Source: a virus
Direction: 5' to 3' (one strand)
Length of the DNA stretch: 27,982 nucleotides
IMG/VR virus record: IMGVR_UViG_3300049783_001444
Coordinates: 1-27,982 of that record
Part shown: positions 7,053 through 21,623 of the stretch, piece by piece
Layout of the letters: each line of letters opens with the position of its first letter
Position numbering within the stretch: position 1 is the stretch's first letter
The notes under the pieces: model-generated
What the model was told of the DNA's origin: nothing
Database searches by the model: none
What the model saw: the letters and a program-made list of their open reading frames with translations, nothing else
Translations under genes and position numbers: made by a program

Positions 7053-7053
7053 T

Positions 7054-7677: not shown

Positions 7678-8249
7678 AAACACTAGAAGAAATATACCAA
7701 AGTCATAATAACGGAAATAGTGGTGCTGGACATGGAGATAAAGGCACAGTTCATAGTTACATCCCAGAATATGAAAGACTATTTAACCCATTTAGAAATA
7801 AAAAAATTAATATACTAGAAATAGGTATTGCTTATGGTGAATCATTAGAATTATGGGATAAATATTTTACTAACGCAAATGTGTTTGGAGCTGATATACA
7901 TGATATAGAAATATTTAGTGATCAATTTAAACCAGGTGGTTATAAAGATGATGAACGATTTACTATATGGATTTCAGATGCCACCAAACCAGAATTTCTA
8001 GACGTAATAGGTGATACTAAATTTGATATTATTATTGATGACGGTTCACACCAATTAAATGATCAAATATCAACATTTGAATTATTAAAAGATAGAATAA
8101 ATCCTGGTGGTTTGTTTATAATTGAAGATGTAGCTAACATTACAATTGATGCTATTGAATTTGAAGAAAAACATGATAATATCGAAATTTATGATGGTAG
8201 AGAATTAAAAGGCCGTTATGACGACGCTTTAATAATATTAAAATTTTAA
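7674..8249 (+). CDS. Class I SAM-dependent methyltransferase (sugar O-methyltransferase-like)
   Basis: 191 aa. SAM-binding motif I is ILEIGIAYGES (about 47-57), the acidic residue after strand 2 is in FGADIHD, and FDIIIDDGSHQ (about 117-127) is the strand-4 motif. The pairing of DKGTVHSYIPEYE at the N-terminus with DDGSH is typical of macrolide/deoxysugar O-methyltransferases (MycE-like), which suggests methylation of a sugar hydroxyl. It sits between glycosyltransferases and shares 4 nt with the one upstream, so glycan capping or decoration is the likely role. Substrate inferred. Confidence 0.83.
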   Translation: MKTLEEIYQSHNNGNSGAGHGDKGTVHSYIPEYERLFNPFRNKKINILEIGIAYGESLELWDKYFTNANVFGADIHDIEIFSDQFKPGGYKDDERFTIWISDATKPEFLDVIGDTKFDIIIDDGSHQLNDQISTFELLKDRINPGGLFIIEDVANITIDAIEFEEKHDNIEIYDGRELKGRYDDALIILKF

Positions 8250-8252
8250 TAA

Positions 8253-9050: not shown

Positions 9051-9739
9051 TGAGAATAATCTATAGAATATCAGATACTGGTTATAGTAAAGTAAAACCT
9101 GATTATATCAACAATGAAAAGTGTTTAGCAAATGCTGCTAAAGAATTTGACGATTCTATTTGGAGTGTTATAGCAGACAACGTATCATCATATACTAATG
9201 ATATGATTCAAAAGTATTTAACACGTAATTGTATCTTATATGTTGAGAAAGGTAATGGAGCGGCAACATTTAATTTGGCGTTAGATGAAGCTTTAACATA
9301 TGACGATGATGAAATTGTTTATTTTTTAGAAAATGATTATCTTCACAAACCCGGCTCTCAAAAAATAATCCAAGAAGCGTTTGAATTAGGGGCATCATTT
9401 GTGTCATTATATGACCACCCAGATAAGTATATTGGACCAGAACAAGGTGGTAACCCATACTGTAAAGGTGGTGCTGAAGATACTAGGGTATACAAAACAG
9501 ATTCCATACATTGGAAGATAACAAACAGTACAACTATGACATTTGCTGCCAAAGTTAGTACATTAAAAGAAAATGAAGACATACTTAGAAAACATACATC
9601 AGGAACACATCCAAATGATTTTCAAATGTTTTTAGAATTACGAGAACAAAATAAATTATTAATAACACCGATACCAGGTTATGCAACTCATGGAGAAACA
9701 GCTTGGTTATCACCTTTAACAGATTGGAGTAAAATATGA
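9050..9739 (+). CDS. Putative GT-A-like glycosyltransferase
   Basis: 229 aa. No textbook GT2 start, but the layout is GT-A-like: RIIYRISDTGYSKVKPDYI, then NGAATFNLALDEAL, then DDDEIVYFLENDYLHKPG (about 84-101), where ENDY stands at the usual DxD position. EAFELGASFVSLYDHPD follows. Its place between a GT2 and an epimerase supports glycan synthesis. It shares 4 nt with the next gene (ATGA). Family assignment is by pattern only; a non-transferase role is possible. Confidence 0.65.
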   Translation: MRIIYRISDTGYSKVKPDYINNEKCLANAAKEFDDSIWSVIADNVSSYTNDMIQKYLTRNCILYVEKGNGAATFNLALDEALTYDDDEIVYFLENDYLHKPGSQKIIQEAFELGASFVSLYDHPDKYIGPEQGGNPYCKGGAEDTRVYKTDSIHWKITNSTTMTFAAKVSTLKENEDILRKHTSGTHPNDFQMFLELREQNKLLITPIPGYATHGETAWLSPLTDWSKI

Positions 9740-10737
9740 AAAAAAATATATTAATAACAGGTGTAGCGGGTTTATTAGGTAGTAGATTAGCTGATTGGAT
9801 AATTGAAAATAAAGGAGATGAATATCAAGTAATTGGTGTTGATGATTTAAGTGGAGGGTTCAAAGAAAATGTGAATCCCGAAGTTAAATTTTGGCAAATG
9901 GATTTAGTTAACCACCCAATTGAGAATATATTTGAATTTCATAAAATCGATTATGTATACCATTTTGCTGCTTATGCTGCTGAGGGATTATCGCCTTTTA
10001 TACGTTCGTACAACTATGATAACAATTTAAAAGCCACGGCCCGCATAGTCAATGAATGCATAAAGAACGACGTTAAAAGATTGGTATTTACGTCAACATT
10101 AGCAGTATATGGTCATGGTGAAGGTGGAATATTTGATGAAGATCAACAACAAGCTCCAATTGATCCTTATGGTGTCGCGAAATATGCTTGTGAAATGGAT
10201 ATTCAAATAGCAGCTGAACAACATGGTTTAGATTATTGTATTATTCGACCACATAATGTTTATGGTATTAATCAGAATATTTGGGATAAGTATAGAAATG
10301 TATTAGGCATTTGGATGTATCAGTATTTGAATGGGCAACCAATGACAATATTTGGAGACGGTGAACAAACACGAGCATTTAGTTATATAGATGACTCATT
10401 AGAGCCATTTTGGAATGCTGCTATAAAACCTAAAGCTAGTAAAGAAATAATTAATTTAGGGGGTATTGATGAATATTCAATTAAAGAAGCAGCTGAAGTG
10501 TTAAAAGAAGTAATGGGTGCTGAAGAAGTTGTATATTTAGAAGGTAGACACGAAGTAAAACATTCTATCCCAACTTACCAAAAATCCATTGATATATTAG
10601 GTTTTGAACATAAAACTTCATTAAAAGAGGGCTTAACTGAAATGTGGGAATGGGCTAAAAAACAACCTATGAGAGATAGATTTGTATGGCCTAGCTATGA
10701 ATTAGAAAAAGGCATTTACTCGTTTTGGAAAAATTAG
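9736..10737 (+). CDS. NAD-dependent sugar epimerase/dehydratase (extended SDR)
   Basis: 333 aa, the usual length for the family. TGVAGLLG (8-15) is the TGxxGxxG nucleotide-binding loop, VDDLSGG follows strand 2, FTSTLAVYG (about 118-126) is the active-site Ser/Thr strand, and Y145xxxK149 (YGVAK) is the catalytic pair. IIRPHNVYG and the later FGDGEQTRAFSYIDD are hallmarks of UDP-glucose 4-epimerase-like enzymes. It would convert one NDP-sugar into another for the neighbouring transferases. The exact sugar cannot be decided between 4-epimerase and related decarboxylase/dehydratase activities. The next gene starts with TTG inside its last codons. Confidence 0.9.
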   Translation: MKKNILITGVAGLLGSRLADWIIENKGDEYQVIGVDDLSGGFKENVNPEVKFWQMDLVNHPIENIFEFHKIDYVYHFAAYAAEGLSPFIRSYNYDNNLKATARIVNECIKNDVKRLVFTSTLAVYGHGEGGIFDEDQQQAPIDPYGVAKYACEMDIQIAAEQHGLDYCIIRPHNVYGINQNIWDKYRNVLGIWMYQYLNGQPMTIFGDGEQTRAFSYIDDSLEPFWNAAIKPKASKEIINLGGIDEYSIKEAAEVLKEVMGAEEVVYLEGRHEVKHSIPTYQKSIDILGFEHKTSLKEGLTEMWEWAKKQPMRDRFVWPSYELEKGIYSFWKN

Positions 10738-11309
10738 AATTTATAGTTCCTACTTTCAAAGATGATATCCAATTAATGGGTCTAATCTACTCATTAATAG
10801 CTCAAAGTAATAATAACTGGACAGCCCACATAATATCAGATGGTGAATATGAGGGGTTTAATGAAGTTGTAGAACATTTTTGTTTAAATAATCAAATTAA
10901 GTTTTCAACAATTAAAGGTCCAAATAATGATTGGGGACATACAGCTAGAAACTATGGTTTAAAACACTCCAGTGAAGAATGGGTTGTAATGACAGGAGCA
11001 GATAATTATTATATGCCTGATTTTGTAGATGAATTCCTAAAAATACCTGAAATTGATGGAGATTATAACTTCATATATTGTAATATGGTTCATAATGAAG
11101 CTCACTACAAACATTATCAAGTATTAGAAACTCAATTGAGGGTAAATGAAATTGATATGGGATGTTTTGCTACAAGGTCTAAATATTCAAAACAAATAAA
11201 ATTAGATACAAAAAGCTATCAAGCAGACTGGCGTTTCGTAGAAAACTATCGTATATTATACCCAAGCAAGGTTAACCACATAAAAAAAGTATTATATGTC
11301 CACAATTAA
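10725..11309 (+). CDS. GT-A glycosyltransferase (family 2-like)
   Basis: 194 aa. LEFIVPTFKDDIQLMGLIYSL is a GT2 start. WTAHIISDGEYEGF, the WGHTARNYGLKHS helix and VVMTGADNYYMPDF (about 88-101, with ADN at the metal site) complete the donor domain. No ATG fits before the family start, so TTG at 10725 is used, overlapping the epimerase by 13 nt. It is shorter than most GT2 proteins and lacks a long acceptor domain. The next gene overlaps its end by 14 nt. Confidence 0.82.
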   Translation: MEKLEFIVPTFKDDIQLMGLIYSLIAQSNNNWTAHIISDGEYEGFNEVVEHFCLNNQIKFSTIKGPNNDWGHTARNYGLKHSSEEWVVMTGADNYYMPDFVDEFLKIPEIDGDYNFIYCNMVHNEAHYKHYQVLETQLRVNEIDMGCFATRSKYSKQIKLDTKSYQADWRFVENYRILYPSKVNHIKKVLYVHN

Positions 11310-11811
11310 AGTCCCAGACGAATTAACTTTACCTGTGATACAATGGGTAAGAAAAATATCACATAGGAAAAGATACTTAAAACAATCACCCCCTGAACAC
11401 GTTGGTAAAGTAATTGGGGCTAGGTTTATAAATAAAAAGGATTTCCCGCTTTATAAAGAATTAAAGGCAATAGACCATTATATTTTAAAAGCTTTTGGTT
11501 ATAAGAAAAATACACCTATTTGTAAAAAAGATGGTTGGTTTTTATCCTATTCTGAAGACGGACATATAGTTCATACTCATAAAGACAAAAATCCTGATAA
11601 TGAAAATTATATTGTTAGGTTTAATGTTATAGTTTCAAAACCAGAAGTTGGAGGTAATCCCATTATAGATGGTAATGAAATTGAAGTTGAGGAAAACGAA
11701 GTATGGGTTTGTAAGGCAGGAGAAGATTTTCACAGCACAACTGAAGTAAAAGGTCAATTCCCAAGGGTTATGATAAGTTTTGGACATTATATAAATAAAG
11801 AATTGATATGA
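11296..11811 (+). CDS. 2-oxoglutarate/Fe(II)-dependent oxygenase
   Basis: 171 aa. The jelly-roll iron site is visible: H95-x-D97 (THKDK), distal H146 (EDFHSTTEV) and R157 (FPRVMISFG) for 2-oxoglutarate. Such enzymes hydroxylate or otherwise oxidise a substrate using O2 and 2-oxoglutarate, releasing CO2 and succinate. It is embedded in the glycan operon between a glycosyltransferase and a UDP-sugar dehydrogenase, so a sugar or the glycan-bearing protein is a plausible substrate (inference). It ends in a 4-nt overlap with the next gene. Confidence 0.82.
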   Translation: MSTIKVPDELTLPVIQWVRKISHRKRYLKQSPPEHVGKVIGARFINKKDFPLYKELKAIDHYILKAFGYKKNTPICKKDGWFLSYSEDGHIVHTHKDKNPDNENYIVRFNVIVSKPEVGGNPIIDGNEIEVEENEVWVCKAGEDFHSTTEVKGQFPRVMISFGHYINKELI

Positions 11812-12629
11812 GTATAGGAATTATAGGACAGGGTTTTGTTGGCAACGCAGTTTTTCAAAAGTTTAAAAAATATTATGACATAAAAGCATATGATTTAAAA
11901 GCTATGTTATCAAATGCAACTGAACAGGAAGTATTAGATAATGATGTTGTATTTATTTGTTTACCAACACCAATGAATAAAGATGGTAGTTGCTATATAG
12001 ATATAGTTGAGGCCGCTATTAAACGTGTATTTGAATTTGGAGTTGCTACGACAGTAGTTATTAAATCGACTGTACCCCCAGGTACTACATCTAAATGGAA
12101 TAAACAATTCCCATCACTTGATATTGTATTCAACCCTGAATTTTTAACTGAAGCAAATGCCGTAAGTGATTATGAAAACCAAACACGTATTATATTGGGT
12201 GGGCCTAGAAAATCAACCACTAAATTAAAACCTATATTTGCTAAAGTATTTCCAAAGGCATCAATTATTAAAACTGCTTCAACATATGCTGAAATGGTTA
12301 AGTACGTTACCAACTCGTTTTTAGCAACTAAAGTATCATTTGCAAATGAAATGTATCAAATATGTGAGGGATTAGATGTTGATTACGATAAAGTAATAGA
12401 ATATGCTACGTATGATGAACGGTTAGGTAAATCTCATTGGGCAGTACCAGGACCAGATGGTGATTTTGGGTATGGAGGTCATTGTTTTCCTAAAGATGTA
12501 AATGCATTAATCGAAGTAGCTATTGCTAATAAAGTATTCCCACTTATGTTAGTAGCAACTGATGAAAAAAATGGTCAAGTTAGACAAAATAAAGACTGGG
12601 AAAAAATGAAAGGTAGAGCAATAATATAA
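11808..12629 (+). CDS. ugd: UDP-glucose/GDP-mannose 6-dehydrogenase family, short form
   Basis: 273 aa. GIIGQGFVG (4-12) is the NAD-binding loop, FICLPTP (about 49-55) follows, and STVPPGTT (87-94), NPEFL (109-113) and K165-x3-N169 are conserved. The catalytic cysteine is C226 in GYGGHCFPKD. The enzyme would oxidise an NDP-sugar C6 alcohol to a uronic acid with two NAD+. Family members are usually about 390-450 aa; this one ends soon after the central helical domain and lacks the C-terminal UDP-binding domain. The gene is intact with no frameshift, so the short form is probably natural. Short phage versions may use a different or larger substrate. Confidence 0.88.
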   Translation: MSIGIIGQGFVGNAVFQKFKKYYDIKAYDLKAMLSNATEQEVLDNDVVFICLPTPMNKDGSCYIDIVEAAIKRVFEFGVATTVVIKSTVPPGTTSKWNKQFPSLDIVFNPEFLTEANAVSDYENQTRIILGGPRKSTTKLKPIFAKVFPKASIIKTASTYAEMVKYVTNSFLATKVSFANEMYQICEGLDVDYDKVIEYATYDERLGKSHWAVPGPDGDFGYGGHCFPKDVNALIEVAIANKVFPLMLVATDEKNGQVRQNKDWEKMKGRAII

Positions 12630-12633
12630 AACT

Positions 12634-13203
12634 ATGGCATCAATATACACAATAGAAAATTTTTATACAGACCCTGATTATGTAAGGCAAGAGGCATTAA
12701 ACATGGAATGGTTTGATAAAAAAGGTAACCATCCTGGCAAACGTACAAATCCTATAAAGGACATATCAGTCAAAAATAAGATTGAAACTGAAATAAATAG
12801 AACTATCATTGATTGGGATGCTGATTGGAACACTTATAGTGGTGTTTTTAATCTTTGTACTCAACAAGATAGATGTTGGATACATTCAGATTGGGGTACA
12901 ACTTGGGCATGTGTAATATACTTAACCCCAGACGCACCATTATCATCAGGTACTGGGTTATATAAACATAATAAAACAGGATTCCGTTCACCACCAAAAG
13001 ATAAAGCATTTGCTGATGAAATAGCTAAAGATGGTTTAGATTTTACTGCATGGGAAGTAACTGACGTTATAGGCAATGTATATAACAGAGCAGTTGTGTA
13101 TGAAGGGCATTATTATCATTCTGCGGTACAATACTTTGGGCACTCACCCGAATATTGTAGACTACATCAAACATTTTTCTTTTCTACTAAGGAAGACTCT
13201 TAA
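12634..13203 (+). CDS. DUF6445-like 2OG/Fe(II) oxygenase-type protein
   Basis: 189 aa. The iron-binding triad is H84-x-D86 (WIHSDWG), H162 (YYHSAVQYFG) and R176 (CRLHQTFFF). The surrounding WACVIYLTPDAPLSSGTGLY and GNVYNRAVVYEG follow the double-stranded beta-helix of DUF6445-type proteins. It is the last gene of the first glycan operon and is followed by promoter P3. A hydroxylase role on the glycan or a protein is inferred from fold and neighbours; the substrate is unknown. Confidence 0.8.
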   Translation: MASIYTIENFYTDPDYVRQEALNMEWFDKKGNHPGKRTNPIKDISVKNKIETEINRTIIDWDADWNTYSGVFNLCTQQDRCWIHSDWGTTWACVIYLTPDAPLSSGTGLYKHNKTGFRSPPKDKAFADEIAKDGLDFTAWEVTDVIGNVYNRAVVYEGHYYHSAVQYFGHSPEYCRLHQTFFFSTKEDS

Positions 13204-13208
13204 AGACC

Positions 13209-13233
13209 CCCGCGTAAAAATTAGGCTACCGCA
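13209..13233 (+). repeat. 25-nt repeat copy, identical to 17002-17026
   Basis: The 25 nt from CCCGCGTAAAAATTAGG to ACCGCA are identical here and at 17002-17026. A diverged copy lies at 21583-21604 (with GGATACC). The repeat contains the TTAG box and the first part of the spacer of promoters P3 and P4, so it is a dispersed promoter-bearing cassette rather than a simple repeat. Confidence 0.85.
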
Positions 13234-13252
13234 TAGATAGTTCGTATATTTA
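13221..13252 (+). promoter_or_regulatory. Promoter P3 (TTAG-N20-TATATTTA)
   Basis: TTAG (13221-13224), a 20-nt spacer starting GCTACCGCA and ending GTTCG, then TATATTTA (13245-13252). ACGG-type sequence and an AT-rich leader ending AAAGGTT precede the ATG at 13284. Architecture matches the Bacteroidota -33/-7 promoter, with TTAG in place of TTTG. Confidence 0.7.
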
Positions 13253-13283
13253 CGGTATAATAATAATAATAAAAATAAAGGTT

Positions 13284-14021
13284 ATGTCAAACGAAACGCA
13301 ATTAGATTTATTTGAAGGAAAAATTTTAACAACTGATCAAAAACTAGAAATTCAACAATATATTTCTAGATGTGATAAAGAAGTTCTTAGAAAACAAAAC
13401 GAGAATAGAGAAATCATGTTATTACTTGATGAAGCTGGTTTTAGACAGGGTATTGATTATGTAAATGATTTTGGAGTAGATGTAAAAACTTATGAGCATG
13501 AGTTTGGTTATTGTTACAACAATACTGAATGGGTTGCTGAAGTTGAAGTAATGAGAAGTAGTGGTGGGTGTCAAATTTTATTTGATTCATTTCGAAATGG
13601 TAAAATTGAAATGGGTAAAAGTTATGTTAGTAGAGAAGGTGATAAATTACAATGTACTAGTATTACTTCACAATATAGATATTATAAGCCAAGTTCATTA
13701 TTAGCTAAACTTAAAGAACATAATAATTTCTCATTAAGACAATTAGAAGCTACTAATAAAAAACAAAGTATACTAGAATACACAGTTGAGAAATATACAA
13801 AATTATTTCCTAATGCTGAAGTTAAAGTAGGTCGTGATTATGATAGAAATAGAAACAATTTTAATGAATTTTCCACAATAATAATTAATTTCACATCAGG
13901 TAGTTATGTTATTTATAGATTAGGTTATAATAATGATGGAGAATATTTACATAAAAAGTTTGATAATGTAGTTGATACATTAAAAGGAATGGATTTATTA
14001 AATCACTTTAACAATCAATAA
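13284..14021 (+). CDS. Unknown 245-aa protein
   Basis: It starts at the ATG directly after the AAAGGTT leader of promoter P3. The N-terminus (ETQLDLFEGK) resembles a clamp-binding peptide (QLDLF), a motif used by proteins that bind bacterial or phage sliding clamps. This may be chance but fits a replication-linked role. A helical segment (about 15-55) is followed by two similar-looking mixed domains, each with a charged YDVKTYEHEFGY- or RDYDRNRNNFNEF-type segment. No enzyme motif is recognised. The next gene follows after one base. Confidence 0.8.
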   Translation: MSNETQLDLFEGKILTTDQKLEIQQYISRCDKEVLRKQNENREIMLLLDEAGFRQGIDYVNDFGVDVKTYEHEFGYCYNNTEWVAEVEVMRSSGGCQILFDSFRNGKIEMGKSYVSREGDKLQCTSITSQYRYYKPSSLLAKLKEHNNFSLRQLEATNKKQSILEYTVEKYTKLFPNAEVKVGRDYDRNRNNFNEFSTIIINFTSGSYVIYRLGYNNDGEYLHKKFDNVVDTLKGMDLLNHFNNQ

Positions 14022-14022
14022 T

Positions 14023-14394
14023 ATGAAAGATAGAATAGAAATAGATGGAGTATGGTACACTAGAGAAGATAATACAACTCCCGAAGTAATCCCTCAACTA
14101 GAACCCTCCATATCATATGAAGGTTTAGTATTTGAATCCGATCTTTATTGTTTTGAAGTCACTAGATTAAGAGATGACACAGGTAACTTTTATGATAAAC
14201 AATGTGATATTCAATTTACTGATAAAAAATTAGATATAGACAACTCAGAACATTGGGATAGTGTAGATTGGATGTGTGGTATTTTAGAAAATGAAGTGGA
14301 AGCAATTGATGAGGCAATGGAATCATTGTGTTCTCAAGGATTAATTGAATTAAAAGAAGTATTAAAAGAATTAGCTGAAAAGGGGTGGATATGA
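14023..14394 (+). CDS. Unknown acidic 123-aa protein
   Basis: The start ATG follows the previous stop as TAATATG. The protein is strongly acidic, with a beta-rich N-terminal half (IEIDGVWYTRED, LVFESDLYCFEVTRL) and a helical C-terminus (MESLCSQGLIELKEVLKELAEKG). No known domain is recognised. Its stop overlaps the next start (ATGA), so it belongs to the P3 operon. Confidence 0.78.
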   Translation: MKDRIEIDGVWYTREDNTTPEVIPQLEPSISYEGLVFESDLYCFEVTRLRDDTGNFYDKQCDIQFTDKKLDIDNSEHWDSVDWMCGILENEVEAIDEAMESLCSQGLIELKEVLKELAEKGWI

Positions 14395-14621
14395 GTTGGA
14401 ATCATAGAGTAATGAAACACGAAAAGGCAGATGGAGATGATGATTGGTATCAAATTCATGAAGTTCACTATAACAGTAAACGGAAACCAGAGAGTTGGAC
14501 TGTAGAAGGTATTGCCCCTGGAGGTAATACGCTTGAGGATTTAAGAGATGAATTAATTAGGATGTTAGAAGCAACAGAAAAAAATATATTAAATTATGAA
14601 ATTAAAAATGATCAAATGTAA
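14391..14621 (+). CDS. Small conserved-looking protein (76 aa)
   Basis: Starts MSWNHRVMKHE, continues with YQIHEVHYNSKRKPESWT and ends in a helix (LEDLRDELIRMLEATEKNIL). I recall this layout in small uncharacterised proteins of both bacteria and phages; no function is established. ATG 14391 is chosen because it forms the ATGA overlap with the previous gene; a GTG two codons upstream is possible. The 3' end overlaps the next gene by 26 nt. Confidence 0.78.
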   Translation: MSWNHRVMKHEKADGDDDWYQIHEVHYNSKRKPESWTVEGIAPGGNTLEDLRDELIRMLEATEKNILNYEIKNDQM

Positions 14622-14874
14622 CTCATGTGAAGGTGATATGCCTGAACTAAGATTAACAACATACAGTTATGACTTCTGCGTTAAATGTTCAGAAAGTGGA
14701 AACAAGGTTAAAGCTAAACATGGTGTTAATATTATGATGGGTGAAGGAGACCATACATGGGTTGAAACTGTGATTATGGATGAAGACCAATATAACAACT
14801 ACCAGAAATCATATAATTCAAATAAACCAGAACCAACGTTAATTGAATTTGGGATAGAAGTAAATGGCAAATAA
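14596..14874 (+). CDS. Small zinc-binding protein (CxxC...CxxC)
   Basis: 92 aa. C8-N-S-C11 and C28-V-K-C31 form a four-cysteine zinc site, with the second pair in FCVKC, reminiscent of DksA/TraR-type fingers. The C-terminal half is acidic and shows no further motif. It overlaps its upstream neighbour by 26 nt and the next gene by 11 nt. It may bind nucleic acid or a protein partner; which one cannot be told from sequence. Confidence 0.75.
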   Translation: MKLKMIKCNSCEGDMPELRLTTYSYDFCVKCSESGNKVKAKHGVNIMMGEGDHTWVETVIMDEDQYNNYQKSYNSNKPEPTLIEFGIEVNGK

Positions 14875-15481
14875 GAAGAAATTTTTAAGTAAGGAACAAA
14901 TAGTAGCGGCACAGGGTAAAACACTATCCAATATGGCTGCCGCTAGGTACCTTCATGTTTCATATCAACATTATAAGAAATACGCTAAAATGTATACCTT
15001 ATTTGAGGACCATAAAAACCAATCAGGTAAGGGTATACCTAAGTATTTAAAAGGCCCTAAAAAAATGCCTCATATGAAGGAGATAATTGAAGGTAGGATA
15101 GCAGCCTCCTCATTTAATCCAAACAAGCTTAAATACGCTTTAATAGAACAAGGGTATATAGCAGAGGAATGTGTTTCGTGTAAATTTAAAGAAAGACGAG
15201 TATTAGATTATAAAATACCTTTATTATTACATTTTAAAGATAAAAACAGTAACAACTATAGTTTAGACAATGTTCAATTATTATGTTATAACCATTATTT
15301 TCTACAAGTAGGAGACATATTTAATAAACAAGATGTTAAACAACTTGAGTCACAACAAGAACATTATGGTACAAGTGAAACTATTGAATTTGAAGTTGAT
15401 GATTACCACTTACAACGTTTAAAAGAGTTAGGTTTAGATGGTGAAGATGATGATGTTGATCAATATATAAGCAGAATATAA
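14864..15481 (+). CDS. HNH-like zinc protein with helix-turn-helix-type N-terminus
   Basis: 205 aa. Residues 8-45 (KEQIVAAQGKTLSNMAAARYLHVSYQHYKKYAK) read as a helix-turn-helix segment. Then comes a treble-clef-like core: C103-x2-C106, LLLHFKDKN with H123, LDNVQLLC with N136 and C141, and H144 in CYNHYF. It looks like an HNH endonuclease core in which the last CxxC cysteine is replaced by H144. The C-terminus is very acidic. I recall this type in marine T4-like phages. It could be a DNA-binding regulator or a homing-type nuclease; whether it still cuts DNA is uncertain. Confidence 0.7.
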   Translation: MANKKKFLSKEQIVAAQGKTLSNMAAARYLHVSYQHYKKYAKMYTLFEDHKNQSGKGIPKYLKGPKKMPHMKEIIEGRIAASSFNPNKLKYALIEQGYIAEECVSCKFKERRVLDYKIPLLLHFKDKNSNNYSLDNVQLLCYNHYFLQVGDIFNKQDVKQLESQQEHYGTSETIEFEVDDYHLQRLKELGLDGEDDDVDQYISRI

Positions 15482-15637
15482 ATGAAAAATAAAAAACATC
15501 ATAAGATTACTAAGGACTATAATAAGCAAAAAAGTAAGCATCTGGAAAAGTTAACAAATAAAATGCTTAAAAATGATGAAAAAGCTCAACAATTAAAATC
15601 AAAACCAATTAAGGGTGATTTTTTAAAAAACTTTTAA
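15482..15637 (+). CDS. Lysine-rich 51-aa protein
   Basis: An uninterrupted ATG...TAA frame fills the gap exactly: it begins directly after the previous stop and ends 1 nt before the next ATG. The product (MKNKKHHKITKDYNKQKSKH...) is about one third lysine, with two histidines, so very basic; it may bind nucleic acid. No motif is recognised. The perfect fit between neighbours argues that it is a real gene despite its size. Confidence 0.65.
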   Translation: MKNKKHHKITKDYNKQKSKHLEKLTNKMLKNDEKAQQLKSKPIKGDFLKNF

Positions 15638-15638
15638 C

Positions 15639-16229
15639 ATGAAAAAATTAGATAGTATATCGTTAGTATTATTATTTTCAATTATATTATTCTCAACAGT
15701 GGCCTTTACAACTATTGTTAGAGCCAAAGCACAACCCATTATTCAACTTAAACCCAAACCTATAGTTGAAATGCAAGTTAAAATAACAGCACCTGAACTT
15801 GTAATAATGTCAACCTCACATGAGCAGTTTTTAAATGCAATGGGGCATAGAGAATCAACTAATAATTATACAGTTGTTAATAAATTTGGTTATATGGGTA
15901 GATACCAATTTGGTCAATCAACACTTAAAGGGTTAGGTATTAAGGCATCAACAGAAGAATTTATTAATAATCCAGCTTTACAAGAATATGCGATGCAAGA
16001 ATTATTAGTACATAATAAAAAAAAATTAAAGCGATATATTAAAAAATATGAAGGTCAAATTGTTCATGGTGTATTCATAACTGAGTCAGGGATATTAGCT
16101 GCTGCCCATATAGGTGGTGCTGGTAATGTTCGTAGATTTTTTAGGAATGGGTATGAATTTAAAGATGGTTTTGGAACCAAAATGACCTCGTATATGAAGT
16201 TATTTGGGGGGTATAATTTAAATGTTTAA
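15639..16229 (+). CDS. Exported lysozyme/transglycosylase-like protein
   Basis: 196 aa. A signal peptide or N-terminal anchor (SISLVLLFSIILFSTVAFTT, about 6-25) ends at RAKAQ, a possible AxA cleavage site near residue 31. The mature part has FLNAMGHRESTNNYTVVNKFGYMGRYQFG (about 64-92), matching the lysozyme-like transglycosylase fold with E72 as catalytic acid, then YMGRYQFG and a later ESGILAAAHIGGAGNV. It would cut peptidoglycan in the periplasm, as an endolysin exported by the host Sec system or during infection. No holin is obvious beside it, although small membrane proteins lie further on. Confidence 0.8.
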   Translation: MKKLDSISLVLLFSIILFSTVAFTTIVRAKAQPIIQLKPKPIVEMQVKITAPELVIMSTSHEQFLNAMGHRESTNNYTVVNKFGYMGRYQFGQSTLKGLGIKASTEEFINNPALQEYAMQELLVHNKKKLKRYIKKYEGQIVHGVFITESGILAAAHIGGAGNVRRFFRNGYEFKDGFGTKMTSYMKLFGGYNLNV

Positions 16230-16253
16230 TTATATATTTATGTCAAAAATGCA

Positions 16254-16382
16254 ATGGCAAAATTATTACAATTAAGTAATTATACACATAAGTCTAAAAC
16301 AAAAAGACCAGGGATACATTCAAAGAATGCTTCAAAAGGACAAAATGGATATAAAAAAACTTATAAAGGGCAAGGTAGATAA
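16254..16382 (+). CDS. Basic 42-aa protein ending KGQGR
   Basis: ATG 16254 to TAA 16382 encodes 42 residues rich in Lys, Ser and Gly, including KTKRPGIHSKNASKGQ and ending YKKTYKGQGR. I recall short proteins with an RPG-H-K...YKK-Y-GQGR pattern in marine T4-like phages, which supports reality; the function is unknown. Its 3' end overlaps the next gene's start by 38 nt in another frame. Confidence 0.55.
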   Translation: MAKLLQLSNYTHKSKTKRPGIHSKNASKGQNGYKKTYKGQGR

Positions 16383-17010
16383 ATTCAATAAACAAGGTTA
16401 CATCCATTTAAAAAATGTAATTAAACCTCCCTTATTGTCTCATACCCGCTATCAATCTATAGCATTAGCTAAACATTATAGACAATTTGAGGGCCAACCT
16501 AGAGATAATGGTACAGGTATATTTTGGAAAGGGTTAGAAATGGCTTCAACATTACAACCTATGTTATTTGAATCATATACTCATAAAGATATGTTTCATA
16601 TTGCCCAAGCGTTTTTAGGGGTGGATGAACCTTATTTATACAATGATCAAGTAGTAGTTAAATTCCCACTTGATGAATTTACATTTGAACCGCATTATGA
16701 CAATGAATACGGTCCTAATAAAGAGGGAGCATTAAAAGGTGAGTTTAAAACAATAAATTGCTGTCAAATATTAACAAATATGCCCATTAAAAGCGGTCCA
16801 TTACGTTGTTATAACAATGAAACACAACAATATGATGTATTACCCGCTAAAGCTGGAGACATCGTTGTAATCGACGGTAACACATTACATTCTTCTACAC
16901 ATAATCTATCAGATAAAGTAAGAGCACTATATGCTTGTGTTTATTCTTCACACCCCATAGGTGACCACATGCAGGGATTCTATAACGAAAAATTTAAGAC
17001 TCCCGCGTAA
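16345..17010 (+). CDS. PhyH-type 2OG/Fe(II) oxygenase
   Basis: 221 aa from ATG 16345; an earlier in-frame ATG at 16327 would overlap the small upstream gene more. The N-terminus FNKQGYIHLKNVI is the usual PhyH opening. The iron site is H117-x-D119 (PHYDNEYGP) with H182 (LHSSTHNLS) and R193 for 2-oxoglutarate. PhyH enzymes hydroxylate small molecules such as lipids, amino-acid derivatives or sugars; the substrate here is unknown. The last residues and the TAA stop lie inside the promoter-cassette repeat (17002-17026). Confidence 0.85.
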   Translation: MDIKKLIKGKVDKFNKQGYIHLKNVIKPPLLSHTRYQSIALAKHYRQFEGQPRDNGTGIFWKGLEMASTLQPMLFESYTHKDMFHIAQAFLGVDEPYLYNDQVVVKFPLDEFTFEPHYDNEYGPNKEGALKGEFKTINCCQILTNMPIKSGPLRCYNNETQQYDVLPAKAGDIVVIDGNTLHSSTHNLSDKVRALYACVYSSHPIGDHMQGFYNEKFKTPA

Positions 17011-17026
17011 AAATTAGGCTACCGCA
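17002..17026 (+). repeat. 25-nt repeat copy, identical to 13209-13233
   Basis: Second copy of the promoter-bearing repeat. Here its first nine bases are coding (the last residues and stop of the PhyH-type gene), while the copy at 13209 is wholly intergenic. This supports the cassette having been copied next to different genes. Confidence 0.85.
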
Positions 17027-17045
17027 GTAATATTTCGTATATTCA
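17014..17045 (+). promoter_or_regulatory. Promoter P4 (TTAG-N20-TATATTCA)
   Basis: TTAG (17014-17017), a 20-nt spacer starting GCTACCGCA and ending TTTCG, TATATTCA (17038-17045), then CGGTG and an AT-rich leader ending AAAGGTT before the ATG at 17071. The TTAG box begins 4 nt after the previous stop. Confidence 0.7.
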
Positions 17046-17073
17046 CGGTGTAATAATAAAAATAAAGGTTATG
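17033..17073 (+). repeat. 41-nt promoter/leader repeat, identical to 19794-19834
   Basis: From TTTCGTATATTCACGG through the AAAGGTTATG start codon, all 41 nt match the copy at 19794-19834. The repeat spans the -7 box, transcription start region, leader and ATG, so genes 17071 and 19832 have the same 5' untranslated region. Confidence 0.9.
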
Positions 17074-17307
17074 AGTGAAAATAAAAGATATGTTGTACAA
17101 ATGGAAATGTACGTTTATGCTGACAACGATTATATGGCTAAAAAACGTGCTAACGATTTAAGATTATCAATTGGTAATAGAAGACATTCCCAAGATGTAG
17201 TAGTTAAAGAAATAGGTGAACAACCATTTGCTTCAACTTATTATAGAAAATTTGACGATCCATCCTTTACACCTAAAGATACGTCTAACGATCCTTTACC
17301 ATTTTAA
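17071..17307 (+). CDS. Unknown 78-aa protein
   Basis: Starts at the ATG of the P4 leader. The first half is a predicted beta-alpha unit (RYVVQMEMYVYADNDYMAKKRANDLRLSIG) and the C-terminus is extended and proline-rich (SFTPKDTSNDPLPF). No domain is recognised. It is followed through TAATATG by a 53-aa gene. Confidence 0.72.
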   Translation: MSENKRYVVQMEMYVYADNDYMAKKRANDLRLSIGNRRHSQDVVVKEIGEQPFASTYYRKFDDPSFTPKDTSNDPLPF

Positions 17308-17308
17308 T

Positions 17309-17470
17309 ATGAAAGCAGGAGATTGGATAACATATGATAATAAACGTAAAAAATGTTTTGGAATACATTTTAATGGTAATATCTTAATAAAGATGAATGG
17401 TACTTTAGTACAAGTACCACATAAAAAAACAAGGTTATGGCAAAACGCGAATATAGAGGTTGCGAATTAG
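17309..17470 (+). CDS. Small beta-rich protein (53 aa)
   Basis: ATG 17309 forms the TAATATG junction with the previous stop. The product, beginning MKAGDWITYDNKRKKCFGIH, looks like a small all-beta (SH3-like) domain. No function is recognised. Its 3' end overlaps the next small ORF by 34 nt. Confidence 0.65.
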   Translation: MKAGDWITYDNKRKKCFGIHFNGNILIKMNGTLVQVPHKKTRLWQNANIEVAN

Positions 17471-17577
17471 AATCTCCACTGTATAGACAAGTAGCAGCTG
17501 AAATGGCTGGTAAACCTCTAATAATCGAATCAAAAACAAAACGAGGTAAGCGCAGTAAAATTAGGCTACCGCAGTAA
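17437..17577 (+). CDS. Small ORF (46 aa) whose end runs through promoter P5
   Basis: ATG 17437 is preceded by ACAAGGTT, close to the AAAGGTT leader seen at promoter-led genes. The product is basic (MAKREYRGCELESPLYRQ...KTKRGKRSK). Its last codons, KIRLPQ-stop, are the TTAG box and spacer of promoter P5 read as coding sequence, so the C-terminus is supplied by the cassette. No known family. Confidence 0.5.
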   Translation: MAKREYRGCELESPLYRQVAAEMAGKPLIIESKTKRGKRSKIRLPQ

Positions 17578-17592
17578 TAGTTCGTATATTTA
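17561..17592 (+). promoter_or_regulatory. Promoter P5 (TTAG-N20-TATATTTA)
   Basis: TTAG (17561-17564), a spacer of 20 nt starting GCTACCGCA and ending GTTCG, TATATTTA (17585-17592). The leader to ATG 17641 is longer than at the other sites and contains TCGAA-TGG-TTCGA (17598-17610), a 5-bp hairpin or a GTTCGA direct repeat that could be an operator. It ends in AAAGGTTAT. Confidence 0.7.
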
Positions 17593-17640
17593 TGTGTTCG
17601 AATGGTTCGAGCGATTAATTAATTAAAAAATAAAGGTTAT

Positions 17641-17835
17641 ATGTTTTATCAAATCACAAATGTTAAGTTAAAAAGAAACAATCAAATTAGAGTTGCATCA
17701 ATGGGTGCTCTTGTTAAAGCGATTAAAAAAGAAGGTTGGTCAATTGGTGATTGTAAGGTTACTGAAATGGCTAAAGAGTTAGTTAATGCTAAATATAAAT
17801 CGCCAGATGGTAGAATGGCAACTAACCAACATTAA
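17641..17835 (+). CDS. Unknown basic 64-aa protein
   Basis: First gene after promoter P5. Starts MFYQITNVKLKRNNQIRV, then a helix (MGALVKAIKKEGWSIGDCKV). The pattern suggests a small alpha/beta protein with no recognised motif. It ends in the TAATATG junction with the next gene. Confidence 0.7.
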   Translation: MFYQITNVKLKRNNQIRVASMGALVKAIKKEGWSIGDCKVTEMAKELVNAKYKSPDGRMATNQH

Positions 17836-17836
17836 T

Positions 17837-18250
17837 ATGAGTAGAGGTAGACCAAAAGAACAAGAAGCAATAGTATGGCAAAAATACACTCAAGAAATGC
17901 TTGAGGTACCATCAAAACCCGAATTAGGTGGAAGATCAGTTTGGCACTATGATAGAAGTAAATTTGATCGTGGTCCGTATAAAACTGAACATTGGGAAGC
18001 TAAAGGTTATAAACAACCTAAACCACAAATTGATCAACGTTTATATGAAAAAAATAGCCCAACTGTAATAATATTTGCTACATCTAACCGTTCAAATGCT
18101 AAGGTAAAAATGAAGATAATTAATAAAAATATTGATTATGTTATCACAGCTAAGAAAATACCAGGTATACCAGAAAAAGCAGAATGGCTTGAATTGGGAG
18201 TTGGTGTGTCCTTTATTGCTAAGTGGAAAAAGAAGTATAATTTGAAGTAA
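17837..18250 (+). CDS. Unknown 137-aa protein
   Basis: ATG 17837 is in a TAATATG junction; upstream codons in frame lie within the previous gene. It starts MSRGRPKEQE, where GRPK resembles a minor-groove AT-hook core. There is a charged middle (SVWHYDRSKFDRGPYKTEHW) and a C-terminal half that looks beta-rich (TVIIFATSNRSNAKVKMKI) and ends in basic residues. DNA binding is possible but not shown. No family recognised. Confidence 0.75.
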   Translation: MSRGRPKEQEAIVWQKYTQEMLEVPSKPELGGRSVWHYDRSKFDRGPYKTEHWEAKGYKQPKPQIDQRLYEKNSPTVIIFATSNRSNAKVKMKIINKNIDYVITAKKIPGIPEKAEWLELGVGVSFIAKWKKKYNLK

Positions 18251-18289
18251 ATTTATATATTTATAATAAACATTTAAAGAACAATTATT

Positions 18290-18586
18290 ATGGTGATAGT
18301 ATGTATTATTTTAACTTTATTAGTGATAGCAGGTGCTATTTATTATTTTGAGTTTTATAAAAAAGGTAAAATCAATGACAGAGATGGAGATTATATTCCT
18401 GATGAAATAGAGGATACAATTGAAGATATTAAGGAGCATGCTAAGGAAGTTAAACGTAGAGCTAAAAACGTTGGAGAAGAATTAAAAGATGTAGTCGTAG
18501 CAGCTAAAGAGTTAGGTAACCAATTAGGTGATGTAGCTAAGGCAGCAAAAGGTAAAAAAAGACAAGGTCGTAAATCTAAAAAATAA
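18290..18586 (+). CDS. Membrane-anchored protein with DxDGD motif and amphipathic helices
   Basis: 98 aa. One N-terminal transmembrane segment (MVIVCIILTLLVIAGAIYYF) is followed by a short loop NDRDGDYIPDEIED, which resembles calcium-binding DxDxDG/thrombospondin type 3 repeats. A long amphipathic helix rich in Lys, Glu and Ala and a basic tail (KKRQGRKSKK) complete it. It is probably anchored in the inner membrane. The 39-nt leader holds TTATATATTTATAA, but no upstream box at the right spacing. Role unknown. Confidence 0.72.
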   Translation: MVIVCIILTLLVIAGAIYYFEFYKKGKINDRDGDYIPDEIEDTIEDIKEHAKEVKRRAKNVGEELKDVVVAAKELGNQLGDVAKAAKGKKRQGRKSKK

Positions 18587-18589
18587 AAA

Positions 18590-19699
18590 ATGAGTAAATA
18601 CAATTTAGAAGAAATTCACATAAGCAATGTTAAAGAAAATATGTCAGCAGATGACCAAGCCAGATTTGATAATCTAACTAAAGATGATCAATTAAAACTT
18701 GAAAAAATATTTTCAATGATGAAAGCTGAAAAAGATGCTAAAAAATCAACAAACGAAGATTTTGATAGTGTAGTAGACAAAATTAAAGATTCAGGTAAAT
18801 CAGAAGAGGATGCTAAAAAAATTGCGGGTGCAATTAATGCTAAATATGTAGGTAATTATAGAGAAGGTGTTGAAGAAAGTGATGCTGCAGATTATACAGA
18901 AGAAATAGCTGAAGAAAATGATGAAGATAAATTGCCAATGGATGAAGATAAATACGATGACATCGTAGATGCAGATAGTGATATCCCTGCTGATAAGAAA
19001 AAGGCAGCAGCCTTAGCTTACAGAAAAGTAGATAAAGGTGATTCATATGAAAAGGCAACATCACATATTAAAGAAGTAAGAGTTGATAGTGAGGTAGCTG
19101 AACGTATTGAAGGTTTGTTAAATCGAGATTTAAAAAGAAAATTTTTATTTGCGTTTGAAGACTTATATAGTGACTTAATTGAAGAAGATCCATTTCATGC
19201 TGAAGATGTAATTAACCATTTAAATAATGAAATGTACAAGCAACTTCAAAGTTATCAAGATACAGGTGATAAATTTGCTGGTATGGAAGAAGGAGCAATG
19301 CAACCCGGTGAAGGTGATCTAGAATCAGGTGAAACAGGTAACATGGATGCTTTAGATGAAGCTGAACCAATAGGTTTATCACCAGGTAAAAGTGAAAAAG
19401 GAGCTGATGGTAAGATGCATAATGTTAAAGCTTCAAATTCAGAAAGAAAAATGGCAATGAGAAGAGTCATTGATGCTTTAACTACTAAAGGTGATGAAAA
19501 AGGATTTAAAATAAGTAATGATCAAGCTTTAGAATTCATAAGAACACATAAAGACGATATATTTTCAGGAGACATAGATACAGAAGATGTTGAAGACATT
19601 TGGATGAACTATAATGAATATGAATCAATTAATACCGATTCATTAGGTGAAGCAACATTAAAAGAACACTTTGGCCGTTTTATGAAAGATTATCAATAA
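18590..19699 (+). CDS. Acidic 369-aa protein, possible virion/scaffold component
   Basis: Very acidic and helical, with low-complexity Asp/Glu stretches (about 95-130). It contains two units that look related: VVDKIKDSGKSEEDAKKIAGA (about 61-81) and a later segment ADKKKAAALAYRKVDKG (about 137-155). The second half has KRKFLFAFEDLYSDLIEEDPFH and a C-terminal LKEHFGRFMKDYQ. No enzyme motif is visible. Acidic, helical composition occurs in phage scaffold or internal head proteins and in small-molecule-independent regulators; nothing decides. It ends the unit: a structured RNA and a strong terminator follow. Confidence 0.72.
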   Translation: MSKYNLEEIHISNVKENMSADDQARFDNLTKDDQLKLEKIFSMMKAEKDAKKSTNEDFDSVVDKIKDSGKSEEDAKKIAGAINAKYVGNYREGVEESDAADYTEEIAEENDEDKLPMDEDKYDDIVDADSDIPADKKKAAALAYRKVDKGDSYEKATSHIKEVRVDSEVAERIEGLLNRDLKRKFLFAFEDLYSDLIEEDPFHAEDVINHLNNEMYKQLQSYQDTGDKFAGMEEGAMQPGEGDLESGETGNMDALDEAEPIGLSPGKSEKGADGKMHNVKASNSERKMAMRRVIDALTTKGDEKGFKISNDQALEFIRTHKDDIFSGDIDTEDVEDIWMNYNEYESINTDSLGEATLKEHFGRFMKDYQ

Positions 19700-19709
19700 A
19701 ATAAACAGT

Positions 19710-19750
19710 ACTTACTACGCTACCCATTTGAATAGCGTCCCAGAGTAAGT
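19710..19750 (+). other. Structured RNA hairpin upstream of a terminator
   Basis: ACTTACT (19710-19716) pairs with AGTAAGT (19744-19750), and CGCTA (19718-19722) pairs with TAGCG (19733-19737). A 10-nt loop lies at the tip and a 1-by-6 nt internal loop lies between the two stems. It sits 10 nt after a stop codon and 12 nt before the terminator stem. It could be a 3' end stabiliser or part of a small RNA. Pairing is read from sequence; function is not known. Confidence 0.55.
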
Positions 19751-19761
19751 CTTTTAAAGAT

Positions 19762-19796
19762 AAGTGCGGTTCCATTAGGATACCGCACTTTTTTTT
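19762..19796 (+). terminator. Strong intrinsic terminator overlapping a promoter
   Basis: AAGTGCGGT (19762-19770) pairs with ACCGCACTT (19782-19790). TCC (19771-19773) pairs with GGA (19778-19780) inside it, with one bulged base and an ATTA loop. An 8-T run (19789-19796) follows. The loop and inner stem carry the TTAG box of promoter P6. It ends the unit of the acidic protein gene. Confidence 0.88.
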
Positions 19797-19806
19797 CGTA
19801 TATTCA
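19775..19806 (+). promoter_or_regulatory. Promoter P6 (TTAG-N20-TATATTCA) inside a terminator
   Basis: TTAG (19775-19778) lies in the terminator tip. The 20-nt spacer starts GATACCGCA and consists of the right arm and T-run of the terminator plus CG. TATATTCA (19799-19806) follows, then CGGTG and the AAAGGTT leader before ATG 19832. Confidence 0.7.
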
Positions 19807-19834
19807 CGGTGTAATAATAAAAATAAAGGTTATG
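19794..19834 (+). repeat. 41-nt promoter/leader repeat, identical to 17033-17073
   Basis: Second copy of the block running from TTTCGTATATTCACGG to the AAAGGTTATG start codon. Upstream of the block the two sites differ: a terminator arm and T-run here, a non-hairpin spacer at 17018-17032. The conserved unit is therefore the -7 box plus leader. Confidence 0.9.
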
Positions 19835-20278
19835 CCCATAGTAGAATTTTCAAATTACAACAAACATGGTAATATTCGTACTCGTAGATTTTGGCAAGAA
19901 AAAAGTAATTTAAGTATCAATCCTAGCGGATTTGGTCCTTCAATATTCTTTAGACTTTTCAAATACGACCACACTAATAGAATATCTCCATCATTACTTA
20001 CCTTATCTGGTAAAACATACATAATGCCAGGCTGGCAAGAAGTATTACCTCAAACTCGATTAAGTGATATTAATTGGATTAAGCCAAAACCAAAGAAAAT
20101 AGTTAAACAAAAACCAATAATCGAAACTAATATTAGTGGAAGTGGTTTAGGTGAATACACAACTAAATATTATCCTGAAAGTGGTAAATTTCATTGTTCA
20201 TGTCCTGGATATTGGAGGTCAAGTGGTAATTGTAAGCATGTAAAGGTAATGCGCACAAAATTTGGAGACGCGAAGTAG
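19832..20278 (+). CDS. SWIM-type zinc-finger protein
   Basis: 148 aa. The C-terminal YTTKYYPESGKFHCSCPGYW...GNCKHVKVM contains C122-x-C124, C134-x-H136, the SWIM zinc-finger pattern CxC...CxH found in DNA-, RNA- or protein-binding proteins. The N-terminal half is basic, with FWQEKSNLSIN and IFFRLFKYDH, and no known domain. A lysine-rich linker (KPKPKKIVKQKP) joins them. Promoter P7 begins within its last codons, so it leads directly into the DNA ligase unit. DNA binding is inferred. Confidence 0.82.
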   Translation: MPIVEFSNYNKHGNIRTRRFWQEKSNLSINPSGFGPSIFFRLFKYDHTNRISPSLLTLSGKTYIMPGWQEVLPQTRLSDINWIKPKPKKIVKQKPIIETNISGSGLGEYTTKYYPESGKFHCSCPGYWRSSGNCKHVKVMRTKFGDAK

Positions 20279-20292
20279 GGTTCGTATATTCA
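20261..20292 (+). promoter_or_regulatory. Promoter P7 (TTTG-N20-TATATTCA)
   Basis: TTTG (20261-20264), an exact match to the Bacteroidota -33 box, lies inside the last codons of the SWIM gene (K-F-G). The 20-nt spacer ends GTTCG and TATATTCA is at 20285-20292. Unlike its siblings it lacks the GCTACCGCA spacer start. This shows that spacing and boxes, not the whole repeat, are the shared feature. The AAAGGTT leader precedes ATG 20316 of the ligase. Confidence 0.7.
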
Positions 20293-20315
20293 CGTGAATG
20301 ATAAAAACAAAGGTT

Positions 20316-21575
20316 ATGATAGAATTAACGAATTTTATAGATGCAATGCGTGCTACGAGTAGTGCCACTGAAAAAATACAAATTATTAAAGATGCTGATA
20401 GGCATATTCATACTATGTTAGAATATGTTTACAACCCATTTAAACAATATCATGTTACTAGTAAAACGTGTATTAAAAATAAAGATAAGATTACTAAAAG
20501 TAATTATAGTTTATTTGAGTTACTAGATAAATTAACTAATAGGGAAGTAACGGGACATGAAGCTATAGGTTTAATAAATGGTCTAGCTGATGGTCAATTT
20601 AATCCTTATATCTACAAAATGATAGATAAAGATTTAGGCATCAGAGCTGGTGATTCAATAATTAATAAAGCAGTACCTGGATTAATCCCTACATTTAAAG
20701 TTGCATTAGCAAAAGAATATGATGATAAATGTGATTGGAATGATGGGTGGTATGCTTCAAGAAAATTAGATGGTGTTAGATGTTTAGCCGTTGTTAATTA
20801 TGAAGGTGAATGTACACTTTATTCTAGAATGGGTAAAGAATTAACTACATTAAACAAAGTAAAAGAAGCGATTGAAGCATCAGGTATTATTAATACTGTA
20901 TTTGATGGTGAAATTTGTTTAGTTGATGAGAATGGTGATGAAGATTTTCAAGGTATAATGAAACAGCTAAGACGTAAAGACCATCAAATCGAAAACCCGG
21001 CTTATATGATATTTGATATGCTTCATAAACCCAATTTTGATGCTCATAAAGGTGGTCCTATATTAAGTCAAAGATTAGGAGCGTTAAGGTCATTTTTAAC
21101 TGGTAGATATATTACTGATAATACATTACGTTATACAGAACAATTCCAAATAACAGATAATGACCATTTTAATTACTGGTCTGAAATGTCCAATCAAGAA
21201 GGTTGGGAAGGTGTTATGTTACGTAAAGATGTTACTTATGAAGGTAAACGTACTAAAAATTTACTTAAAGTTAAGAAATTCTTCGATGCTGAATATACAG
21301 TAGTTGATTTTGATATTGATGACCATGAAGTAGTTAGAGATGGTAAATCTGTCACACTACAACTACTAGCCCAAGTATACATTGAACATAAAGGACATAG
21401 AGTAAAAGTTGGTAGTGGGTTTACTCAAGAACAACGATTACAATATATGGATGGTTCAATTGTAGGTAAAATTATTACAGTACAATATTTTGAGGAAACT
21501 AAAAACGACAAAGGTGGTATTAGTTTACGATTCCCAACTATGAAGCACGTACACGGAGATAAAAGAGAAATGTAA
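20316..21575 (+). CDS. lig: ATP-dependent DNA ligase
   Basis: 419 aa. Nucleotidyltransferase motifs are in order: motif I KLDG with the AMP-accepting K150 (ASRKLDGVR), motif III FDGEICLV, motif IV EGVMLRKD and motif V LLKVKKF. A C-terminal OB-fold-like region follows (AEYTVVDFDIDD...GKIITVQYFEETKNDKG...SLRFP). It seals nicks using ATP, the role of T4 gp30. I chose ATG 20316 over 20298 because it follows the conserved AAAGGTT leader; the upstream ATG would translate that leader. T4 gp30 is a little longer (487 aa), with a larger N-terminal domain. Confidence 0.93.
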   Translation: MIELTNFIDAMRATSSATEKIQIIKDADRHIHTMLEYVYNPFKQYHVTSKTCIKNKDKITKSNYSLFELLDKLTNREVTGHEAIGLINGLADGQFNPYIYKMIDKDLGIRAGDSIINKAVPGLIPTFKVALAKEYDDKCDWNDGWYASRKLDGVRCLAVVNYEGECTLYSRMGKELTTLNKVKEAIEASGIINTVFDGEICLVDENGDEDFQGIMKQLRRKDHQIENPAYMIFDMLHKPNFDAHKGGPILSQRLGALRSFLTGRYITDNTLRYTEQFQITDNDHFNYWSEMSNQEGWEGVMLRKDVTYEGKRTKNLLKVKKFFDAEYTVVDFDIDDHEVVRDGKSVTLQLLAQVYIEHKGHRVKVGSGFTQEQRLQYMDGSIVGKIITVQYFEETKNDKGGISLRFPTMKHVHGDKREM

Positions 21576-21591: not shown

Positions 21592-21623
21592 TTAGGATAC
21601 CGCATAGATAGTTCGTATATTTA
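21592..21623 (+). promoter_or_regulatory. Promoter P8 (TTAG-N20-TATATTTA)
   Basis: TTAG (21592-21595), a spacer of 20 nt starting GATACCGCA and ending GTTCG, TATATTTA (21616-21623). The leader ending AAAGGTT precedes a 32-aa ORF at 21656. The upstream part is a diverged copy of the 25-nt repeat. Confidence 0.7.

Follow-up and report, generated by a model that had tools for sequence, protein, structure and literature searches.

Background

Among the described arrangements that join a promoter and a terminator, the PeSL (promoter early stem-loop) is reportedly treated in Arbiol 2010 and in Comeau 2014, the latter said to be entitled 'Composite conserved promoter-terminator motifs'. In the part of the source available, the PeSL is given as a composite promoter-terminator cassette of T4-type phages (PMC4503421). 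As for promoter letters, the Bacteroidota sigma-ABfr promoter has, in the available text of its source, a -33 TTTG and a -7 TANNTTTG, with transcription starting 4-5 nt past the -7 element (PMC6847099). Moreover, E. coli RNA polymerase recycles in vitro to the nearest promoter after termination, which according to the authors, in the portion of their paper at hand, is undemonstrated in vivo (PMC11347151).

Herein we describe a locus in a virus record of 27,982 bases, the whole of which is called the window. It carries T4-type replication genes, for example a clamp loader (376-1323) and a ligase, whose best named protein relatives reach about 39% and about 31% respectively, and its bases 1-24000 gave no megablast match among 50,697 named phage records. 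The genes around the unit at 19762-19806 lie on the plus strand, and the features there are as follows.

18590-19699, plus: upA, the upstream gene, 369 aa, with a conserved C-terminus ..HFGRFMKDYQ (19 relatives by protein search)
19709-19752, plus: extra hairpin element between the upA stop and the putative terminator, outside the composite unit proper (fold, copies)
19762-19790, plus: putative terminator hairpin, 12 bp, one bulged T, loop ATTA (sequence and RNA fold)
19762-19773, plus: left arm of the stem, AAGTGCGGT at 19762-19770 and TCC at 19771-19773 (sequence reading)
19774-19777, plus: loop ATTA (sequence reading)
19775-19779, plus: putative -33 box TTAGG, with TTA in the loop and GG atop the right arm (fixed distance to TATATT)
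19778-19788, plus: right arm of the stem, GGA at 19778-19780, bulged T at 19781, ACCGCAC at 19782-19788 (sequence reading)
19789-19796, plus: eight T, putative terminator U-tract and distal part of the promoter spacer (same place in relatives)
19797-19798, plus: CG before the -7 box (sequence reading)
19799-19806, plus: putative -7 box TATATTCA, CG ahead (sequence and promoter motif counts)
19832-20278, plus: gpX, the downstream gene, 148 aa, with a C-x-C...C-x-H pattern (orthologs before ligase in relatives, alignment)
20298-21575, plus: DNA ligase, next after gpX

No match was obtained for upA in Pfam and PHROGs, nor for gpX in Pfam; the C-x-C...C-x-H pattern, which we take to resemble a SWIM zinc finger, is invariant in the gpX alignment of relatives.

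A probable terminator and promoter in one stretch

Read base by base, the 45-base stretch 19762-19806 runs from the 12-bp hairpin through eight T and CG to TATATTCA, with 20 nt separating TTAG from TATATTCA and with the first two of the eight T (from 19789) able to pair with the two leading A of the left arm; the 12-bp stem, the 8-T run, the TTAG in the tip and the 20-nt spacing reported in the sequence-only reading are all exact to the base. The RNA fold of 19755-19798 reaches -19.5 kcal/mol with a z of -6.5, and 0 of 200 shuffles equal it. We read this stretch, with a probability of about 0.78, as a composite terminator-promoter in which the right arm and the U-tract would double as the promoter spacer. 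Like an intrinsic terminator, the unit has a GC-rich stem, a short loop and a T8 tail, the hairpin being followed by the T-run on the transcript strand, behind the stop codon of a gene on the same strand; unlike one, it holds promoter letters in its loop and right arm, in fixed register with the next promoter. Both termination and initiation at 19762-19806 would be predicted from these letters. A terminator scan of bases 1-20000 listed the hairpin 108-130, while the 19762 unit was absent from its list.

With the PeSL, as far as the available part of the source describes it (PMC4503421), the likeness is that of a stem-loop and an early-type promoter within one small intergenic unit, in a phage with T4-type replication genes. 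For a PeSL, a role in gene exchange by recombination is a further criterion; in our relatives, the same composite unit is found ahead of different genes. The difference is the overlap, the -33 box lying here in the loop and the U-tract being the spacer, whereas in the T4 example examined the terminator and the promoter stand side by side without overlap: at T4 15259-15288 (minus strand), where a clear terminator precedes an early promoter, 10 nt lie between the end of the T-run and GTTTAC. Moreover, the T4-type early promoter letters (GTTTAC / TATAAT type) are absent here, where the promoter reads TT[TA]GG-N19-TATATT[TC]A, and because the promoter letters differ we do not class the fused unit as a PeSL, though this is its nearest known kind. 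Separately, T4 has early promoters at 2429-2458 and 50944-50973 (minus strand) with a small spacer hairpin, CCACA-AGGA-TGTGG, directly before TATAAT. Among the titles and abstracts listed from an open-licence collection, none describes a -33 box inside a terminator loop.

The promoter class in the window and its relatives

The window holds 7 copies of TACCGCA where 1.2 are expected, a number that 0 of 100 shuffles attain, and 6 of the 7 have TATATT downstream at the proper distance, each of them on the plus strand and none on the minus strand; the reversed-pattern control for this pairing gave none in the window. Since TATATTNA alone shows no enrichment there (33 against 30.7 expected), the signal is in the combination of elements. 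The other putative promoters of the window are the following.

108-148, plus: first, weaker hairpin-promoter, with hairpin 108-130, CTTG in the loop, tail ATTTATTTTT, and TATATTAT at 141
13214-13252, plus: promoter of the same class as the 19762 unit, without hairpin
17014-17045, plus: promoter of the same class, without hairpin
17561-17592, plus: promoter of the same class, without hairpin
20261-20292, plus: promoter of the same class, without hairpin, ahead of ligase
21592-21623, plus: promoter of the same class, without hairpin

The unit at 108-148, which had been proposed as a first terminator/promoter case, is a real one (fold -16.0, z -3.3, CTTG at -24), though weaker because of its ATTTATTTTT tail and the missing final A of its -7 box, and it stays outside the strict counts.

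To describe the class we used a ligase set of 80 ligase-bearing relatives, gathered by ligase homology with T-runs as no criterion, which together with the window makes 81 records and 1.045 Mb. The promoter of the relatives is TT[TA]GG-N19-TATATT[TC]A with rigid spacing, or TT[TA]GG-N17-CG-TATATT[TC]A when the CG is written out. Upstream of CGTATATT (201 distinct sites in this set), TT[TA]GG stands 19 nt away in 110 of its 112 occurrences; a reversed -33 box gave 0 at 19 nt, and its 10 at 16 nt are letters of the same motif. The two bases 3' of TATATT are TA or CA in 101 of the 110 and GG in 2. Conserved columns span roughly -42 to +21 and make up a motif of some 60 bp, for which only seeds with [TC]A were admitted. 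Among 16 longer records, the pattern has 90 matches in 11, on a single strand within each, and the reversed pattern has none; five more pattern searches, including one repeat, agree with this rule of one strand per record. In 13 of 14 units with hairpin and T-run, a start codon follows 16-57 nt past TATATT, and in named phages the consensus has just four 18-base chance matches. Many relatives (for example L034, L075 and L112) also show an inverted repeat, TTTAC-NNN-GTAAA, whose span takes in the end of the -7 box and the expected start site.

This class is like the sigma-ABfr promoter, as the available text of PMC6847099 gives it, in having TT[TA]G at the -33 place and TATATT at the -7 place in an AT-rich phage. 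It differs from what is stated there in that the -7 box closes with A here (in the 101 of 110) and with G in sigma-ABfr, that the -33 box is invariant here and weak in F. johnsoniae, and that a motif of about 60 bp surrounds the phage promoter (PMC6847099). Searching the T-run pattern in bacterial genomes, judged by name and without a control pattern, Bacteroidota stand in 49 of the 80 titles listed (99 stretches in all), and a Bacteroidota host may be supposed for the phage group.

Recurrence of the fusion

A minority of the promoters in the relatives hold a strong hairpin and a T-run inside the promoter frame. In the 81-record ligase set, 30 sites on the gene strand and 12 on the opposite strand have a hairpin and six T. 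TATATT[TCA]A follows exactly 2 nt after the T-run at 9 of the 30 gene-strand sites and at 0 of the 12 opposite-strand sites, the latter having no such box at any distance within 60 nt. Of the remaining gene-strand sites, four have the box at other distances (3, 5, 7 and 30 nt, once each) and 17 are without it up to 60 nt; L037, one of these 17, is likewise fused, its letters being TATATTGG. Were terminators and boxes placed at random in intergenic DNA, about 0.05 fusions at 2 nt would be expected against the 9 found.

A viral-contig scan for TTTTTTTCGTATATTYAC added further loci, which were chosen for T-runs, so that its figures are lower bounds and serve for variety, not for enrichment. With these loci mixed among those of the other sets, there are at least 43 distinct units with six T or more, and rather than the variable spacing or the missing co-occurrence that would speak against a fused design, the gap is 2 nt in 36 of the 43 listed. 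Many of the stems are unrelated, and at single stem positions three or four kinds of Watson-Crick pair occur. Two cases in one window are too few to show selection for the arrangement, as had been suggested from them; the relatives do show it, by recurrence with different stems in the same geometry. There are also terminators fused to the -7 box but without the usual -33 box, AAGCCCAAA..TTTGGGCTTTTTTTCG-TATATTTAC and alike, which have T letters at the -33 place (L116, L148, L155, L184, L207, L216).

It may be argued that the site is a promoter only, the T-run and the GC-rich spacer letters being promoter preferences and the hairpin a by-product of complementary promoter boxes, GCGTA before and TACCGC after the -33 box. 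In fact, T-runs without hairpin stand in the spacer at 39 of 186 sites of the same promoter class, in a set partly picked for T-runs; since they are so common, a T-run alone is no proof of a terminator, and it was therefore probably not invented for termination. Moreover, the ACCGCA-like letters are the conserved columns -18 to -12 of the general promoter motif, and GCG-like letters are conserved columns too. However, 13 of 84 distinct promoters fold at -14 kcal/mol or lower, whereas 200 column shuffles, which retain those letters, yield 0.24 on average and never more than 3. The other 71 of the 84 fold more weakly, and with the right-arm letters belonging to the general motif, the proposal that the plain promoters derive from fused units is not supported; of the earlier interpretation, selection for the fused geometry finds support and this descent does not. 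Where a promoter already has a T-tract, adding a left arm is enough to make it a terminator.

Pairwise column complementarity over all promoters yielded no strong signal, the hairpins being limited to a minority and the stems being variable. Counts of stem centres at a low threshold (56 against 46 in shuffles) were replaced by folding, and a comparison of sense and antisense folding, stronger in sense for 33 of 37, was dropped as biased, the units having been picked by their sense fold.

The putative terminator behind upA

The gene upA provides a view of the terminator apart from the promoter. An intrinsic terminator, as judged from sequence, lies 3' of its stop codon in 20 of 20 loci (19 relatives and the window), although the independent cases are fewer than 20, since several loci are near copies (L410/L411, L417/L418, L419/L420). 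It is fused to TATATT in 16 of the 20; in three of these the -7 box ends untypically (L404, L417, L418), and one, L421, was counted from its letters, its automatic fold having stopped at an earlier TATATT; in the other 4 (L406, L414, L419, L420) it is plain. The genes downstream of upA differ among the loci. With the terminator in all loci and the promoter half in 16 of 20, the terminator is therefore the constant part behind upA, into which the promoter would be fitted. The geometry of 19762-19806 recurs in relatives, and it stands behind a gene family that is always trailed by a terminator. With a constant terminator and a promoter half either present or absent, change could have gone in either direction.

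To escape the last ribosome, a terminator should stand clear of the stop codon. In the listed loci, which include those of the TTTTTTTCGTATATTYAC scan, the distance from the upstream stop to TATATT has a median of 66 nt in units with a hairpin and seven T, with 0 of 14 under 45, and a median of 35 in promoters with neither hairpin nor T-run, with 85 of 121 under 45. Ordinary promoters overlap the end of the preceding gene, and fused units are clear of it. An effect of distance of such a kind is reported for tR2, in the part of the source available (PMC4824070). Both this clearance and the upA loci that keep their terminator without a promoter behind it (4 of 20) speak against a site that is a promoter only, and we regard that account as quite unlikely.

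Between the upA stop and the terminator of the window, the extra hairpin is seen in the fold of 19690-19760 (-12.7, z -3.4). It is a copy of a 39-nt hairpin element, CTTACTACGCTAC..AGCGTCCCAGAGTAAG, located directly 3' of a stop codon and 5' of the terminator (window 19709-19752, L404, L406, L414, L540-L549). This element lies behind upA in some phages and behind another gene in 8 of the 10 contigs found, for example in L541 behind the major head protein (phrog_11589). The copy in L414 has diverged, its stem changed yet paired, and Rfam gave no match to the element. Another small hairpin, with a constant loop ATTCATAGC, is situated between the upstream stop and the composite unit in L107, L135, L178 and L195; its stems differ and are all complementary (GACTG/CAGTC, GTTCG/CGAAC, GACCG/CGGTC, ACCCG/CGGGT), and the hairpins of L135 and L195 had no match in Rfam.

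Promoter hairpins of other kinds

Several observations do not fit a simple story. A second class of promoter hairpins, class B, has its dyad centre about 17 nt before TATATT and the -33 box in its left arm, with a stem of up to 13 bp and mostly 2-3 T (L036, L037, L063, L068, L070, L075 and others). At the gpX site of L027, L032, L040, L044 and L094, the hairpin is strong, lies inside an upstream 64-aa reading frame and has an interrupted T tail; pairing is kept between L027 and L032, which differ by shifts, and between L040 and L044/L094. Among the 31 distinct gpX promoters (80 loci minus 27 near-duplicates and 22 without box), 14 have a hairpin and 17 have none. The 9 distinct gpX promoters of the ligase set all have one, but a tie of the hairpin to gpX was given up in view of this wider set. 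Distinct dehydrogenase promoters (80 loci minus 39 near-duplicates, 19 without box and 3 with too little upstream DNA) have a hairpin in 18 of 19 and six T or more in only 8; this gene, guessed from ORF sizes to be a capsid gene, is the phrog_12409 dehydrogenase.

Together with the T-runs that lack a hairpin, these misfits suggest that promoter hairpins may have a further role. The hairpin at 19762 could be a structural signal of another kind, in which read-through RNA or a DNA hairpin controls the promoter or leader, as a processing site or by occlusion, and termination is a mere side effect of T-rich versions. Class B with no T-run, the kept pairing in the gpX reading frame and the T-poor dehydrogenase hairpins are all in favour of such a role, whereas a tail of T8-9 and the spacing of a terminator mark the units of the window and of upA, and for the site in question we hold it to be improbable. 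As regards the nature of the pairing, G-U pairs exceed A-C pairs 88 to 38 over all listed dyads, including those of the TTTTTTTCGTATATTYAC scan, a ratio that the fixed TTTGG arm distorts; beyond the box and T-run of the listed units they are 23 to 17, which does not tell RNA from DNA pairing.

With the symmetry centre near the -33 box, one may also think of a dyad operator, where a dimeric DNA-binding protein reads both arms around that box. However, at one and the same promoter the relatives have arms of unrelated sequence, and the run of 7-9 T is confined to the 3' side; because one sequence-specific protein would not tolerate unrelated arms and a one-sided T-run, this is extremely improbable.

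Proposed mechanism and implications

In the composite terminator-promoter that we favour, the transcript through upA would fold the hairpin and the U8 tract and end there by intrinsic termination, while in the DNA the identical letters would be the upstream half of the next promoter, with the -33 TT[TA]GG across the hairpin loop and the right arm and T-run as a rigid spacer to CG-TATATT[TC]A, from which the downstream transcript of gpX, perhaps with ligase, would start. The promoter would fix the spacing and a few letters, and the stem letters would be free provided that the pairing is kept, and therefore unrelated stems could be fitted into one frame many times.

More speculatively, the polymerase that ends the upstream transcript might be released onto the next promoter and reload there. 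This resembles post-termination recycling as the available portion of PMC11347151 describes it, the promoter being very near the termination site, and differs in that the two overlap here, at a presumed distance of about 15 bp against up to about 1000 bp there (PMC11347151). By this analogy recycling would take an extreme natural form in the fused unit; we consider such terminate-and-restart rather doubtful. If it is true, each termination would become a start about 15 bp on, and selection would favour the overlap for handing over the polymerase, beyond any gain in compactness or insulation.

It is common to regard promoters and terminators as distinct signals; here a phage group appears to overlay them in fixed register. 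The rigid pattern TT[TA]GG-N17-CG-TATATT[TC]A, pure in strand, can help to annotate marine phages that are uncultured and have no close named relatives. Judging from the sequences, this little-known marine group appears to have made the fusion many times with unrelated stems. If so, it would be a clean system for asking how far a promoter spacer is free to vary, whether a promoter is insulated or fed by a terminator placed upon it, and whether RNA polymerase recycling after termination happens in nature.
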